From the NCBI GenBank assembly GCA_902614655.1, contig CACMLX010000007.1:1-57829 (forward strand): DNA of 57,829 bases, read 5' to 3'. The notes under the pieces were generated by a model. The model was not told the DNA's origin and did no database searches. It was given only the letters and a program-made list of their open reading frames with translations. Both the position numbers and the translations under genes were made by a program. Source of the stretch: an uncultured Pelagibacteraceae bacterium. GTDB lineage: Bacteria; Pseudomonadota; Alphaproteobacteria; Pelagibacterales; AG-422-B15. Positions 20,097 through 26,058 of this stretch are shown here, piece after piece (the first letter of the stretch is position 1; each line of letters starts with the position of its first letter).

Positions 20097-21392
20097 TTGA
20101 CCAACTTACTTAAACAATCTTTTGATGAAGAAATTAATTTAAAATTAAGAACTTTAAATCTTATACATTGGACAGCAATATTTGGTCAGTTTTTTGCTGT
20201 TATAATTGCGTATTTTTATTTTGAAATTAGTTTTAGTATATATTTCTGTATATTATTAATCTTACTTAGTGTTGTATTAAATATTCTTGTTAGTATTTTT
20301 TACCCTTTAACAAAAATACTTAATTACAATGAAACTTTTTTTATTCTTGTTTTTGACTTACTTCAATTAGTGGGTCTTCTATTTTTAACTGGTGGTTTAA
20401 CCAACCCATTTTCTGTATTAATACTCGCACCACTTGTTATAGCGGCAACTTATCTTGATTTAAAAAGAATAATTATCATTACTATGATAGCAATTATTTC
20501 ACTCAATTTTCTTGCTTTTTTTTATTATCCATTAGAAAGTGCTGTACTAGGCATTAGTCAAAATGAATTTTCTAGATTCGAGATATTTTTAATATGGTCA
20601 GCATTAATAATTGCTGCAATATTTCTCACATTTTATTGTTTTCGTGTTGCGGATGACTCAAGAAAAACTCGTGAAGCGCTTAAAGAAACGCAGCTTTCTC
20701 TATCTAATCAGGAAAAAGTTTCAGCACTAATGGGATTAACTGCGGCAGCAGTTCATGAACTAGGCACTCCGTTATCAACTATCTCAGTGATTACAAAAGA
20801 GCTCGTCAATAATAATAATGATAAGCAAGTAGAAGAAGATTTAAATGTGATACAGTCTCAGCTTAAAAGATGCAGTGATATACTGGAAAGATTAAGATCA
20901 AATAGCTTAGATGATAAAGATAATGAATTTATAAACCAACTAGACTTTATTCGTTTAATTAATGAAATAACATCTTCTTATAATAATAATAACATACACG
21001 TTATAATTACTAATGATCCTTATTTTGAAAATACTAATGTTACTATTCCAAGATCAGCAGAAATGGTTCATTCGATAACTAATGTTGTTGATAATGCCTT
21101 TAAATTTGCAAAATCACAAATAGACATTAATTTAATCAATGAAAAAGAATATATCATAATTGAAGTTGCAGATGATGGTCCTGGTTTTGCGTCAGAAATC
21201 TTCCCTTTTCTTGGGGAACCATATATAAAAAATAATAATGCTAAAAAACAAGGTCTTGGTTTAGGTCTGTTTATTTCAAAAAACCTACTTGCAAAGTCCC
21301 AAGGCGAGATTAAATTTTTACATAGGAAAGGTGGTGGGGGAATGGTGAAAATAATTTTATCAAAAAACCACCTCAATTTATCTAATGAGTAA
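20097..21392 (+). CDS. regB: Redox sensor histidine kinase RegB/PrrB/ActS type
   Basis: Membrane kinase that senses aerobic respiration via the quinone pool. The N-terminal half has about six transmembrane segments and the exact quinone-binding heptapeptide GGLTNPF (99-105). The H-box is AAAVHELGTPLSTIS with phospho-acceptor His220; Cys259 (LKRCSDIL) corresponds to the redox-active cysteine of Rhodobacter RegB. The HATPase domain shows VDNAFKFA, DDGPGF and GLGLGLFISKN. The start is TTG at 20097, preceded by AGGA; no in-frame ATG fits. It overlaps regA by eight bases. The senC/prrC gene often next to regA is absent. Confidence 0.92.
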   Translation: MTNLLKQSFDEEINLKLRTLNLIHWTAIFGQFFAVIIAYFYFEISFSIYFCILLILLSVVLNILVSIFYPLTKILNYNETFFILVFDLLQLVGLLFLTGGLTNPFSVLILAPLVIAATYLDLKRIIIITMIAIISLNFLAFFYYPLESAVLGISQNEFSRFEIFLIWSALIIAAIFLTFYCFRVADDSRKTREALKETQLSLSNQEKVSALMGLTAAAVHELGTPLSTISVITKELVNNNNDKQVEEDLNVIQSQLKRCSDILERLRSNSLDDKDNEFINQLDFIRLINEITSSYNNNNIHVIITNDPYFENTNVTIPRSAEMVHSITNVVDNAFKFAKSQIDINLINEKEYIIIEVADDGPGFASEIFPFLGEPYIKNNNAKKQGLGLGLFISKNLLAKSQGEIKFLHRKGGGGMVKIILSKNHLNLSNE

Positions 21393-21939
21393 TGTAAACG
21401 AATTATATATAAATAATGATAAGTCATTAATGATCATTGACGATGACGACGTGTTTCGTAATAGATTAATTACAGCCATGAAACGTAAAGGTTACGAAGC
21501 ATTTGGAGCCTCATCAGTATCTGAAGCAATAACTTTGGTTAATACAAATGCCCCTAAGTACGCTGTGATTGATTTGCGTTTAAACGATGGTAACGGTTTG
21601 GAGGTTGTTTCAATTTTATCCAATAAAAGACCAGACAGTAAAATAGTAATGCTCACAGGCTATGGCAATATACCTACAGCAGTTGCGGCCGTGAAAGAAG
21701 GCGCGTGTGATTATCTCGCTAAACCGGCGGACGCTGATGATATTGAGGCTGCGCTAAAGGCTCCTTATTCTTCTACGCCTGAACCTCCACAAAATCCCAT
21801 GTCTGCTGATAGGGTAAAGTGGGAGCATATACTTAGAGTGTATGAGCTGTGTAACCGAAATGTTTCTGAGACCGCGAGAAGATTAAAGATGCACAGGCGA
21901 ACTTTACAGAGAATACTTCAGAAAAAGTCCCCAAAATAA
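21385..21939 (+). CDS. regA: Redox response regulator RegA/PrrA/ActR
   Basis: Cognate regulator of RegB, 184 residues. The receiver domain has the acidic pocket IIDDDD, phospho-acceptor Asp63 (AVIDLRLNDGNG) and the conserved Lys in DYLAKPAD; a proline-rich linker leads to a Fis-type helix-turn-helix (NVSETARRLKMHRRTLQRIL), nearly identical to the invariant RegA DNA-binding domain of alphaproteobacteria. RegA controls respiratory oxidases, carbon and nitrogen metabolism in relatives; targets here are unknown. Locally more G+C-rich than its surroundings, as expected for so conserved a domain. Confidence 0.94.
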   Translation: MSNVNELYINNDKSLMIIDDDDVFRNRLITAMKRKGYEAFGASSVSEAITLVNTNAPKYAVIDLRLNDGNGLEVVSILSNKRPDSKIVMLTGYGNIPTAVAAVKEGACDYLAKPADADDIEAALKAPYSSTPEPPQNPMSADRVKWEHILRVYELCNRNVSETARRLKMHRRTLQRILQKKSPK

Positions 21940-21943
21940 TTTA

Positions 21944-23152
21944 TTAAGCAGTTTTTTTTAGTTGATTGATTTCGCTTAAGGCGCTTACACCTTGATCAGC
22001 AATTTCCTGGCCAGCAACAGTATCGCTTTCATTATTTAATTCATCCATGTTAACGAATTCTGCATAAGTTGCTCTAGTTCTATCAGTAATAATGTGGGCC
22101 TTCAAAAGTGTTTTGACAAGAACTCTAAAGATATTATTTTGATTTTTCATTTCATCCTTAATTACTTCACCTTGATCTATGTATTTATGGAATTCTCTAT
22201 CAACCCACTTATGATCTAAACCAACGCAGGAGTATACATGTTTTTTCTCAAATGGATTTACTAGGTTAAACAGTAGTTCAACAAATATTTTCTCAGCCCA
22301 ATCTTCAACCTTGATGTGCTCTTTCTTAGTTAATTTTGGAACTGTTCTATCTGCCCAAATTTTACCAAATTTATGATGGAATGCTTCATCACTCATCGTA
22401 TATTTTAATAAAGTTTTCAATACTGGGTCATTTGTATTTTCATATGCCATAGCAAATGCTCCCATAGCCAACCCTTCGATCATCATTTGCATTCCAATAA
22501 TTTTTTTATAAACTAAATCCGAAGAAACAATCTCGTTAGCTACCCTTCCTAAGGTTGGCCCAACCTTATACGGGGACCCCCATCTAGCTTGTATATACTT
22601 AGTAAAACCAGCTACATGCCTAGCTTCTTCTCTCGTTTGATTAGCCGCATATTCTTGAGCACCCGGATCTCTCAACACATGGCATAAACTTGCACTTAAT
22701 GAAAGAGCAGCCTGCTCACCGTGTAAAATTTGGGATAATACAAATCTAAAACTCTCATTATTTAACTTAATTAATTGATCCTTTGACAACTTCTCTCTAA
22801 TACTTGGAACTTGAAGTTCTATTCCAAAAGGTCCATCAGGATCTACGATGTTTTCATTTTCTATGTCAAATGGAATATCAAAATCAATGTATTTTTTATC
22901 ATTGGGATCCCAGAAATGTTTGTGTGTTGCGCTAATTATTTTATCAAAAGCATCTGATCGATCACTGTAACGATCCTCATCCATCATCGGAATAAAATGT
23001 TTAGGATTTGCTGCGTTATATGCAGGGTCTTTTGTAAGAGAGTTTTTACCTGATTTGGAAGTTTGCCATTTTTCTTGAACTTTATATACCTGGTCTTTTG
23101 CTACAATTTTTGCAATTTGTAATTTTTGTGAGAATTCTACCATTAAAATCAT
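21944..23152 (-). CDS. Ferritin-like diiron protein, function unknown
   Basis: A 402-residue soluble protein with a complete set of diiron carboxylate ligands in a ferritin-like fold: Glu146 (LHGEQAA), Glu176-x2-His179 (EEARHVAG), Glu226 (MIEGLAMG) and Glu256-x2-His259 (SDEAFHHKFG). The pattern resembles AurF-type N-oxygenases and other diiron monooxygenases or desaturases more than ribonucleotide reductase. No signal peptide; the C-terminus is acidic and polar. It is divergently placed to a large RND exporter across 224 bases that hold a clear palindrome, suggesting co-regulation. A second in-frame ATG lies three codons downstream. The substrate is unknown; lipid or hydrophobic-compound oxidation is only a guess from the partner. 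Confidence 0.75.
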   Translation of the reverse strand: MILMVEFSQKLQIAKIVAKDQVYKVQEKWQTSKSGKNSLTKDPAYNAANPKHFIPMMDEDRYSDRSDAFDKIISATHKHFWDPNDKKYIDFDIPFDIENENIVDPDGPFGIELQVPSIREKLSKDQLIKLNNESFRFVLSQILHGEQAALSLSASLCHVLRDPGAQEYAANQTREEARHVAGFTKYIQARWGSPYKVGPTLGRVANEIVSSDLVYKKIIGMQMMIEGLAMGAFAMAYENTNDPVLKTLLKYTMSDEAFHHKFGKIWADRTVPKLTKKEHIKVEDWAEKIFVELLFNLVNPFEKKHVYSCVGLDHKWVDREFHKYIDQGEVIKDEMKNQNNIFRVLVKTLLKAHIITDRTRATYAEFVNMDELNNESDTVAGQEIADQGVSALSEINQLKKTA

Positions 23153-23185
23153 TATAATGAATTCTACTAATTATAAAATACATTT

Positions 23186-23201
23186 ATGAACATTTGTTCA
23201 T
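23186..23201. promoter_or_regulatory. TetR-like palindromic operator candidate
   Basis: ATGAACA-TT-TGTTCAT: perfect 7-base arms with a 2-base centre, in the 224-base divergent region between the diiron protein and the RND exporter, 33 bases from the former's start codon. The size and form fit TetR-family operators. No regulator gene is adjacent, so any repressor would be encoded elsewhere. Confidence 0.55.
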
Positions 23202-23376
23202 TTTTAACTATTAAATATCTATTAATTTCAATATCTTAAAGATTAAATAAGTTTTTGTCATTATTATCTCACGTCTCATCATCTTGAAATAAATTTTATT
23301 CATTATAATTTAACCGTATACAAAGTCATGATTTTCTCATATTTTTTCCCCTATCACGTATTAACTCTATAGAAAA

Positions 23377-26058
23377 ATGCTGCAAAAAATTGAAAATTGG
23401 TTTTTTAAATTCCGTTTTTGGGTACTTGCAAGTTTTGTATTGTTAACAATTATAATGGGTTACTTTGCAGTTCAAATCCGAATGGACGCGGGTTTCTACA
23501 AGCAATTACCAAGCAGTCATTCATTTGTAAAAACTTACTATGAGTATCAAGATGATTTAAGTGGAACTAATAGTATTACTGTTGCTTTGAGGACTACAGA
23601 AGGAGATATTTTTAATAAAGAGTATTTCAGTAAACTTTTTGAGTTGAATCAATCTATTAGATATTTACCAGGAGTTAACCAAGGCTCAATGCAATCACTT
23701 TGGACACCTAATGTGAAAGTAATGCGTGTTACAGAGGAAGGCTTTGAAAGTACAGAAGTCATCCCAGGTAACTTAACTCCAGAAAAATTGTCAGTAGAAG
23801 AAATCAATAAGATTAAGGAAAGAATATTAACGGGCGGGCATGTAGGTAGCATCGTTTCAAACGACTTTACTTCATCGCTAATTAAAGTTGAATTAACGGA
23901 GTTTAACAGAAAAACAGGAGAAAAATTAGATTACTTGCAACTAGGCAAAGATATTGAAAAGATTAGATATCAATTTGAGCAAGGAATATACAGAGTTGAG
24001 ATAACTGGCTTCGCAAAAATGATATCTGACATTGCTAGTGAAGCGTACAATGTTGTAATATTTTTTGCTCTAGCTTTCTTACTTACTGTTTTAGCAGTTT
24101 ATTGGTACTCACGCTCTTGGACTCTTACCTTTCTTCCCCTCGTTTGCTCATTAACATCATTAGTATGGCAATTTGGAATGTTAAAAATTTTAGGTTTTGG
24201 ACTAGATCCTCTGGCGATTCTAGTACCTTTCTTAGTATTTGCCATTGGTGTTTCACATGGAATTCAACAAGTTAATCAGATTACAAAAGAAGTTATAGAA
24301 GGGCAATCATCTGAGTATGCTGCAAGGGCTTCGTTCTCAAGACTATTAGTGCCTGGTACAATGGCGTTAATTACTGATTTAGTTGGATTTGGAACACTTA
24401 TTTTACTTCCAATTGGGATGATTCAAGAACTTGCAATCACTGCGTCAATTGGAGTCGCATTTAAAATAATCACAAACCTCGTTATGCTCCCACTTGCCGC
24501 CTCATATGCGAGATATAATGAAAGTTTTGCAACTAGAGCACAATCTGCCATTACGTATCGACAGAATTTGATGGGATTTTTTGGCAAATTAGCTAAACCT
24601 CGACCAGCTGTGATAACATTATCATTCAGTGCATTATTATTCGCTGGAGCAACTTACTTAGCAAGTGAAAGACATGTCGGGGATCTTCATGCGGGAGCTC
24701 CAGAGCTTCGAGCAGAAGCAAGGTACAATCAAGATATTACAGAGTTAACAAAAAGATATAATGTTACAACAGATGTATTAGTTGTTATAGCAGAAGTTGG
24801 AGCCGCAGTTGGAATCAATCCTTGTCGATCTGACGATGTAATGGCGGCACAGGATAATCTTCATTGGTATCTAGAAAATATTGAGGGAGTTACAAAAGTA
24901 ATTTCCTTATCAAGTGTTGCAAAAAGAGCTTTAAGTGGTTACGCAGAGGGTAACCTTAAATGGACATATCTTCCAAGAAATGAAAGAGCACTAGCTTTTG
25001 CAACAAGTGTCGTTGACCCTTCAACAGGGCTAATTAATGAGGCATGTTCAATAATGCCTATTTACGTTTTTACAGAAGATCACAAGGCAACTACAATAAG
25101 TCATATTATTAAAACAGTAGAGTTATATAATGAGCGATATCGTAATTTAGAAGATTCAATAACTTACAGAGTACAGATACAAAAACCAACGGAAGGTACT
25201 GATATAATTCCTTTTGCAGCCTTTTCGGGCACAACATTGCGACCATTAGAGGTTCTAGGTTTGAAAAATCCAGCTGTCTTTACTGATGATGAATTCACTG
25301 ACTTTGCTTATGAAAATGGATTTAACAGCCGAAACTTGTGGGTCGGCAGTCTTGGAAATTATTATAGAGACATAGATTCATTTGATGAAAATGTAAATTT
25401 TAGAGTTAAAGATATCAAGCAGTCAGAAAAAGTATTTAAAAAATTTTTTGAGGATAATCCAGAGTATTCAGATATCGTATTCGAATCAGATGAAATTAAA
25501 TATAGGCTTGCTAGTGGTACAGTTGGTATTCAACACGCAACCAATGAAGTTATTGAAAAAGGTGAATTGCCAATGATGGTTGCAGTTTATATTGTTATTG
25601 TCATCTTAGTATTTACTACTTATTTAGATTGGAGAGCTACAGTTTGTTGCACAGTCCCTCTAACTTTTGCAACAATGCTGGGTTATGCTTTCATGGAATT
25701 AGCTCAAATTGGACTAAAGGTTTCTACTTTGCCAGTGATGGTCCTTGCAGTAGGAGTAGGAGTTGATTATGCATTTTATATTTACAACAGACTTAATATG
25801 AGAATGAAAGAGGGGTTAGATATCACAGAAGCATTTGAGCATACTTTTGCCAATACAGGTGCTGCAGTAGTCTTTACTGCCATTACTTTAGCAATCGGTG
25901 TTTCTACATGGTCATTCTCTGCGCTGAAATTTCAGGCAGATATGGGATCGTTACTTACATTTATGTTTATAATAAATATGGTTTGTGCGATGACTACACT
26001 ACCTGCTCTTGCCGTTGTACTTGATAGATTATTTCCAAGAAAAAAAATTAATTCTTAG
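23377..26058 (+). CDS. RND superfamily exporter (MMPL type)
   Basis: An 893-residue inner-membrane protein with the RND two-fold layout: one N-terminal transmembrane helix (residues ~13-32), a large periplasmic loop, five or six helices (~220-400), a second periplasmic loop, and a last helical block (~735-885). The matching intramembrane motifs FAIGVSHGIQQVNQI and VGVGVDYAFYIYNRL mark the two halves. The size and absence of an adjacent membrane-fusion or outer-membrane gene place it with MMPL/hopanoid-exporter-like RND proteins moving lipids or other hydrophobic compounds, rather than AcrB. It is divergent from a diiron oxygenase-like gene and may export or import its product. The 3' end overlaps the convergent ABC ATPase gene by 11 bases. 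Confidence 0.85.
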   Translation: MLQKIENWFFKFRFWVLASFVLLTIIMGYFAVQIRMDAGFYKQLPSSHSFVKTYYEYQDDLSGTNSITVALRTTEGDIFNKEYFSKLFELNQSIRYLPGVNQGSMQSLWTPNVKVMRVTEEGFESTEVIPGNLTPEKLSVEEINKIKERILTGGHVGSIVSNDFTSSLIKVELTEFNRKTGEKLDYLQLGKDIEKIRYQFEQGIYRVEITGFAKMISDIASEAYNVVIFFALAFLLTVLAVYWYSRSWTLTFLPLVCSLTSLVWQFGMLKILGFGLDPLAILVPFLVFAIGVSHGIQQVNQITKEVIEGQSSEYAARASFSRLLVPGTMALITDLVGFGTLILLPIGMIQELAITASIGVAFKIITNLVMLPLAASYARYNESFATRAQSAITYRQNLMGFFGKLAKPRPAVITLSFSALLFAGATYLASERHVGDLHAGAPELRAEARYNQDITELTKRYNVTTDVLVVIAEVGAAVGINPCRSDDVMAAQDNLHWYLENIEGVTKVISLSSVAKRALSGYAEGNLKWTYLPRNERALAFATSVVDPSTGLINEACSIMPIYVFTEDHKATTISHIIKTVELYNERYRNLEDSITYRVQIQKPTEGTDIIPFAAFSGTTLRPLEVLGLKNPAVFTDDEFTDFAYENGFNSRNLWVGSLGNYYRDIDSFDENVNFRVKDIKQSEKVFKKFFEDNPEYSDIVFESDEIKYRLASGTVGIQHATNEVIEKGELPMMVAVYIVIVILVFTTYLDWRATVCCTVPLTFATMLGYAFMELAQIGLKVSTLPVMVLAVGVGVDYAFYIYNRLNMRMKEGLDITEAFEHTFANTGAAVVFTAITLAIGVSTWSFSALKFQADMGSLLTFMFIINMVCAMTTLPALAVVLDRLFPRKKINS

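Follow-up and report, generated by a model that had tools for sequence, protein, structure and literature searches.

A conserved gene pair for a ferritin-like diiron protein and an MMPL-type transporter in SAR11, and an operator linking the diiron family to CYP153 loci in other Alphaproteobacteria

We analysed a stretch of 57,829 nucleotides (the window; contig CACMLX010000007.1, assembly GCA_902614655.1) from an uncultured SAR11 (Pelagibacterales) bacterium, whose genome comprises 1.08 Mb in 26 contigs and is 83% complete. In the window, a gene for a ferritin-like diiron protein, here called DI, stands back to back with a gene for an RND transporter of the MMPL type, here called MMPL. DI possesses a full set of diiron ligands and its model is similar in fold to known diiron proteins, the two genes are paired in SAR11 and beyond, a palindrome in front of DI has left a conserved footprint, and in other Alphaproteobacteria the operator of DI is shared with CYP153, GMC and ferredoxin genes. 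These findings suggest that a group of SAR11 bacteria carries a small module for hydrocarbon or lipid oxidation composed of DI and MMPL. SAR11 bacteria count among the most numerous cells on Earth and are regarded as users of small dissolved molecules. If the suggestion is true, the question of who consumes the biogenic hydrocarbons of the ocean becomes directly testable through a SAR11 oxygenase and its lipid-type transporter. In the searches made of the open-licence PMC library, no title or abstract dealt with the DI family, its operator or the DI-MMPL pair.

The diiron protein, the transporter and their pairing

A preliminary description made from the window alone had reported a DI reading frame of 402 residues, a large RND exporter back to back with it, a gap of 224 bases between these divergent genes and a palindrome in the gap, and all of these were confirmed: the DI frame is at 21944-23152 (minus strand), MMPL, of 893 residues, at 23377-26058 (plus strand) and the palindrome at 23186-23201. 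Comparison with relatives placed the conserved start of DI at MVEF, window base 23143. DI is therefore probably 399 rather than 402 residues long; the ATG further upstream coincides in part with a TATAAT box, likewise conserved in relatives. The claim of a complete ligand set also held: in an alignment of 44 family members with 54-99% identity, the six ligands E143, E173, H176, E223, E253 and H256 were invariant. In all 44 they form the pattern E / ExxH / E / ExxH, four Glu and two His, which is the ligand set of R2lox. In the AF2 model of DI (pLDDT 82.2, pTM 0.84), the ligand positions lie in four long helices, each in its own. The top structural matches of the model were AurF and CmlI (VIA Z 18.1-18.7), R2lox (Z at most 17.9) and R2 (Z at most 17.8), with identities of 8-17%, and the alignment with AurF (2jcd, Z 18.7) covered 272 residues of the four-helix diiron fold. 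Helical bundles generally give high structural Z values, and these matches therefore identify the diiron four-helix fold and not a function.

The profile searches against the AurF and aldehyde-deformylating families that had been proposed left DI under both cut-offs, and the earlier statement that it fits no nameable enzyme stood, as no curated family cut-off was reached. The window protein scored 15.2 bits against Pfam AurF (PF11583; cut-off 29.6), 16 bits against Pfam Ald_deCOase (cut-off 28) and 17.7 bits against the NCBIfam aldehyde-deformylating oxygenase TIGR04059 (E 0.0026; cut-off 222.65), and it had no match at E <= 1 to the NCBIfam R2lox profile NF006200, which touched 24 of the 44 members (best E 2.4e-5). 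When DI was searched by itself against PDB sequences, no informative match emerged (the best, at E 0.45, was a response regulator), a PDB search with the DI profile gave only marginal matches to aldehyde decarbonylase (E 0.021), and Foldseek against PDB gave none at E <= 0.001 (best 0.0097, a class Ie R2).

An arylamine N-oxygenase like AurF or CmlI, acting on a secondary metabolite that MMPL exports, is another conceivable identity for DI. AurF is the best structural match of DI (the AurF and CmlI alignments span 254-272 residues), and the Pfam AurF profile touches all 44 members weakly, with a best E of 1.1e-12. However, the window protein is under the cut-off of that profile, the identity to AurF and CmlI is only 8-11%, and the seventh ligand of AurF, presumably the His four residues before the Glu of the last ExxH, is replaced in all 44 members by V (28), T (15) or A (1). 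In addition, no biosynthetic cluster lies nearby in the window. We consider this explanation very improbable. The similarity to cyanobacterial aldehyde-deformylating oxygenase (PF11266, TIGR04059) consists of the best NCBIfam sequence-profile match of DI and of the six-ligand pattern of that family, but DI is more than 150 residues longer than the 220-position profile. R2lox proteins, the Mn/Fe or Fe/Fe ligand-binding oxidases that include GkR2loxI, share the ligand pattern and 15-17% identity with DI, but not an NCBIfam profile match with the window protein. By the tests made, DI is a diiron protein near the AurF/R2lox/aldehyde-deformylating oxygenase group and a member of none of its families. 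As a precedent for alkane oxidation by a related protein, one publication reports GkR2loxI as an alkane monooxygenase, with alkane degradation and a ligand mutant tested in E. coli lysate (PMC10867098).

The MMPL protein passed the Pfam MMPL profile (PF03176) with 80.3 bits against a cut-off of 20.5. It has the RND architecture with two transmembrane repeats of the HAE3/MMPL transporters (HpnN, MmpL3, NCR1/NPC1), but it scored under the HAE3 cut-off (TIGR00921; 190 against 351.9 bits) and under the curated NCBIfam cut-offs of HpnN and BstA. The VIA Z values of its model were 43 for AdeB/AcrD, 41.9 for NCR1 and 41.4 for MmpL3.

Three sets of genomes were searched for the two genes: 36 of the genus, the window's own included, 23 of the other family of the same order, and 385 of the class, where DI was counted when full-length and MMPL at E <= 1e-60. 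DI was present in 29 of the 36 genus genomes and in none of the 23 others. Full-length MMPL orthologues (at least 81% identity) were also found in 29 genus genomes, with a fragment in one more, and in all 27 genus genomes that hold both genes unbroken on one contig the coordinates showed MMPL adjoining DI divergently. In two of the 29 DI genomes (G027 and G035), DI lies at a contig end. Outside SAR11, MMPL (43-54% identity) was divergent from DI (54-61%) in 14 of the 38 loci retrieved, and the pair proposed in the preliminary description is thus conserved both in the genus and in distant Alphaproteobacteria. Among the class genomes, 48 had DI, 39 had MMPL and 20 had both, against an expectation of 4.9 (hypergeometric P 2e-10 without correction for kinship); the genes were adjacent and divergent in 10 of these 20. 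On a tree of 99 DI copies built by a quick method, MMPL linkage required 6 changes, compared with 28.4 in shuffles (7 when L146 and L147 were relabelled as MMPL-linked), illustrating that the linkage is clustered and not exclusive. RegA/RegB, gyrB, recF or mmcB-like genes were common to several non-SAR11 DI/MMPL loci and SAR11, or among such loci themselves. Because these neighbours are shared across several distant loci, the DI-MMPL arrangement is old.

Two DI copies deserve a remark of their own. The orthologue in L016 (G025:C3:48179-49381) contains an in-frame TGA stop. The nearest non-SAR11 copy (L218:9001-11215) adjoins a second protein that looks ferritin-like by eye and that we take to be DUF455; it had no NCBIfam match.

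A palindrome in SAR11 and a wider operator

The palindrome between the genes, ATGAACA-TT-TGTTCAT, is a perfect 7+2+7 dyad. In 2000 simulations of such a gap, a perfect 7-bp dyad with any spacer of 0-8 occurred with P 0.425, with a spacer of 2 with P 0.077, and with at least two G/C per arm with P 0.035. The dyad in a single sequence is therefore not beyond chance, and it is conservation that gives it weight. Its distance from the DI start is 38-43 nt (about 41 nt) in 33 distinct genus-level DI/MMPL loci, and it was the best paired of 2124 dyads scored across them. Its arm columns were 92% identical, compared with 64% for all columns. Ten loci showed full pairing, 17 had 6 of 7 pairs and 6 had 4-5, and G-C replaced A-T on both sides of the dyad, for example in ATGAGCATATGCTCAT. 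A conserved inverted repeat at a promoter, the property looked for in a TetR-type site, was thus present in all 33 loci. Because the dyad adjoins the promoter-like box of DI and is about 175 nt from the MMPL start, it reads as a putative operator of DI and not of both genes. The TATAAT box, which was not among the matches of a consensus promoter scan, suggests by its position that the DI transcript might be nearly leaderless.

Within SAR11, the DI gene and its neighbours differ in their affinities. The window DI was 92-93% identical to the DI of L089-L091, while the neighbours there were 44-77% identical and one short polA fragment 81%. In comparison with L096-L097, which belong to the window's own genus group, the identity was 71-72% for DI and 82% for MMPL. 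The dyad was common to the genus group and not to L089-L091. From these identities, an exchange of DI between SAR11 lineages, in which the gene was replaced without MMPL, is probable for the window's clade. Such an exchange would fit selection on properties of the enzyme, of which it is no proof.

The operator of DI outside SAR11 is TGAC-N6-GTCA (TGACGC-NN-GCGTCA), with the consensus AARNTGACGC-NN-GCGTCANYTT over 70 distinct sites. We scanned 94 non-SAR11 DI copies, a few loci being counted twice under two names, and found an exact TGAC-N6-GTCA within 300 nt upstream in 64 and a site with one mismatch in 6. The upstream regions contained 77 sites in 28,200 nt, whereas the DI gene bodies (101,781 nt) contained one. 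Eight of 13 neighbouring site pairs in the gaps upstream of DI (L121-L150) were exactly 23 bp apart, or two helical turns, a spacing that suggests cooperative binding of two dimers. No site was found within 700 nt of any of 18 MMPL copies without DI. The shared TetR-like palindrome of the preliminary description thus survives as a real operator-like dyad, but the sharing by both genes does not.

The operator was also found before other genes, a context that lay beyond what the window sequence alone could show. A scan of 28 genomes for TGACRCNNGYGTCA yielded 105 matches, compared with 11 for the reversed pattern, and exact site matches numbered 0-11 per genome. Forty stretches around listed sites, mostly avoiding known DI sites, were examined by tblastn with nine queries, and 19 of them contained a gene of the tested kinds: CYP153 alkane hydroxylase in 9, GMC alcohol dehydrogenase in 6, ferredoxin or ferredoxin reductase in 4 and a diverged diiron paralogue, DI2, in 2, some with two kinds. 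The P450 at these loci was identified as CYP153 by its PDB match to 3rwl (E 4e-163), and the GMC protein passed NCBIfam PRK02106. CYP153 gene bodies contained 3 sites in 37.5 kb. Sites outside the tested kinds included those in glutamate-cysteine ligase, polysaccharide and TonB-receptor neighbourhoods. In addition, MMPL-DI-CYP153-DI arrays were present in L136 (Parvibaculum sedimenti) and L217, and coordinates revealed an MMPL paralogue downstream of CYP153 arrays, on the same strand, in G178, G281 and G366. The operator and its regulon would provide a handle on a family of diiron enzymes that has no name as yet and is present in several copies in, for example, Parvibaculum.

An exact TGAC-N6-GTCA was not found at DI in SAR11, where the form is TGAACA-NN-TGTTCA. 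The two have the same 14-bp frame (TGA...TCA), a 2-nt spacer and a similar position, and descent of the SAR11 dyad from the wider operator is plausible on this comparison.

Proposed role and its alternatives

Because the operator is common to DI and to CYP153, alcohol dehydrogenase and ferredoxin genes, DI would belong to a regulon responsive to hydrocarbons or lipids. In the scenario that we favour, by a modest degree, DI would be a soluble diiron oxygenase with a carboxylate-bridged centre. It would activate O2 and oxidise a hydrophobic substrate with a long alkyl or acyl chain, with electrons supplied by a [2Fe-2S] ferredoxin/ferredoxin reductase pair. MMPL would act as an RND transporter driven by protons, carrying the lipid-like substrate or product across the inner membrane or out of it. 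DI would be switched at its own dyad, just upstream of the DI promoter, by a dimeric protein that represses or activates. Elsewhere in Alphaproteobacteria, the equivalent operator would also control the CYP153, alcohol dehydrogenase and ferredoxin genes, and SAR11 would have retained a reduced form consisting of DI, MMPL and a changed operator that may descend from the wider one. The hydrophobic-compound oxidation pair suggested earlier gains support for its oxidation part from the operator common to the CYP153, GMC, ferredoxin and reductase genes and from the MMPL-DI-CYP153 arrays. A more far-reaching version, in which DI and DI2 form an undescribed family of soluble, ferredoxin-fed diiron alkane/alkyl oxygenases that an operator of their own marks throughout Alphaproteobacteria and that belongs to the CYP153 regulon, while one SAR11 lineage has retained the enzyme, MMPL and a diverged operator as a stand-alone module for biogenic hydrocarbons or lipids, with the enzyme gene swapped between lineages, is tentative, and we would sooner doubt than accept it.

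The likeness to CYP153 alkane-hydroxylase gene sets lies in the shared TGAC-N6-GTCA site and in the co-occurrence of ferredoxin and ferredoxin reductase, but DI is a soluble diiron protein and not a P450. Several observations weigh against the oxygenase-regulon scenario. First, in the reverse test a site was present within 400 nt upstream in only 9 of 30 CYP153 loci; 20 of the 40 site loci lacked a gene of the tested kinds, L268 was matched by its own protein only, and 24 of the 94 DI copies, some of them second genes of tandems, lacked a site even at one mismatch. Second, three of the six half-site bases of the SAR11 dyad are not those of the wider operator, whose A-rich flank is missing from it as well. 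The preliminary description had named absence of the palindrome from relatives as a refutation, and the dyad, present in 33 of 33 loci of the genus, was absent from all seven SAR11 loci outside that set (L089-L095). Third, CYP153 was absent at E <= 1e-90 from the window's genome (G000) and from the 99%-complete G019, and the SAR11 pair is therefore without the partner that defines the regulon elsewhere. Fourth, 19 of the 39 MMPL genomes lacked DI and many DI copies were away from MMPL; the DI outside SAR11 that the tree places nearest (L115) has no MMPL link, and in the same tree SAR11 DI does not fall within the MMPL-linked group.

One alternative is that DI is a housekeeping lipid modifier, a soluble acyl desaturase or hydroxylase whose product MMPL carries to the outer envelope. 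The operator would then sense acyl-CoA or free fatty acids and not hydrocarbons, and CYP153 would merely share the sensor. In its favour, MMPL-DI belongs in some Alphaproteobacteria to a conserved block close to gyrB/recF and RegBA, and genes for AMP-binding acyl-CoA ligases and for acyl-CoA dehydrogenases adjoin some DI copies. The MMPL model is similar to MmpL3 and to lipid transporters of the NPC kind, and a SAR11 genome that is streamlined and has no CYP153 has retained the pair. However, the distribution of DI is patchy, with 48 of 385 genomes in the class, none in the other family of the order and frequent multicopy occurrence; sites are also found before CYP153, GMC and ferredoxin genes, and exchange of DI between SAR11 lineages better suits an accessory trait. 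A housekeeping assignment would have spoken against the original proposal, and none emerged for DI. On balance, we regard this alternative as rather unlikely.

DI and MMPL might also be neighbours by ancestry only, with unrelated roles, kept together by synteny. This is in line with an operator that belongs to DI alone, as indicated by the MMPL copies without DI, and with discordant gene histories, DI having been replaced without MMPL in the window's clade. Yet the divergent pairing recurs across wide distances, and the MMPL paralogue behind the CYP153 arrays provides a second link to the same chemistry, which leaves this explanation unlikely in our view.

With regard to the dyad itself, it might be a site for RegA, encoded adjacently, so that an O2-using enzyme would be under redox or O2 control. 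RegBA is convergent with DI in the window and nearby in several other loci, and GACGC half-sites resemble what we take to be RegA sites. The half-site orientation, however, is opposite to the presumed RegA consensus, many site-bearing DI copies occur in loci without RegBA, and exact matches, at most 11 in a genome, are few for a global regulator such as RegA. A RegA site is accordingly quite unlikely.

Candidate regulators and neighbouring features

Within the oxygenase-regulon scenario, the regulator of DI might be sought among TetR proteins. No tetR gene lies between or beside DI and MMPL in the window, and of the TetR_N genes in the window's genome, two clear and a third weak, all are elsewhere and none was tied to the dyad. 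Exact matches to TGARCANNTGYTCA in this genome numbered two, one of which is the DI dyad. The second (L070:8257-8270; G000:C6:54256-54269) is upstream of an aminotransferase gene whose operon includes a GbcA-like oxygenase and a BetI-like tetR. Of 11 loci read, one of them from the window's own genome, 10 had it in this position and one, L208, elsewhere. The outer base pair of this second match is T..A, compared with A..T at the DI dyad. One TetR might control both the DI dyad and this glycine-betaine-type operon site. In L092-L095, the gap between DI and MMPL contains another dyad, TATATCA..TGATATA, roughly 53-73 nt from DI.

A TetR of the L118 type near some DI copies is a further candidate regulator, and the TetR label of the genes in L260 and L284 refers to BLAST similarity to this L118 group. 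The L260 gene had relatives of at least 46% identity in six genomes, its own included, and no relative at E <= 1e-8 in G000 or G019. A FasR/FadR-like TetR of SAR11 (L071) matched the L118 type weakly (31% over 61 residues).

The neighbourhood of the pair in the window is listed in Table 1. The RegA-type regulator clusters with DI/MMPL in other Alphaproteobacteria as well and is part of the conserved neighbourhood. The conserved block before MMPL showed a 16-nt identity of 0.88, the highest in the gap besides the dyad.

Table 1. Positions of the genes and sequence elements of the DI-MMPL region in the window
Feature	Position	Strand	Basis
RegB/ActS/PrrB redox sensor kinase	20097..21392	+	NF033792, 393.4 bits (cut-off 350)
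RegA/ActR/PrrA redox response regulator, convergent with DI	21385..21939	+	NF033791, 285.8 bits (cut-off 250)
DI, ferritin-like diiron protein, 399 aa from MVEF (probable start)	21944..23143	-	Ligands in 44/44; AF2 model; VIA Z
TATAAT box immediately before the conserved start of DI	23151..23156	-	Sequence; conserved in an alignment of 24 gaps
Operator-like footprint at DI, 16-bp dyad ATGAACA-TT-TGTTCAT	23186..23201	.	Fixed position in 33/33 distinct loci
Conserved block before MMPL, possible promoter element	23332..23347	+	Coordinates read by eye
MMPL/RND (HAE3-like) transporter, 893 aa	23377..26058	+	Pfam, NCBIfam, VIA

Finally, the L260 locus (L260:1348-3748) contains in succession a TetR-like gene, an operator, a [2Fe-2S] ferredoxin-like gene, a second operator and DI2, beyond which lies a desaturase-like gene. 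The labels 'fatty-acid desaturase-like' (L260, L262) and 'flavin monooxygenase' (L268) were assigned by eye.

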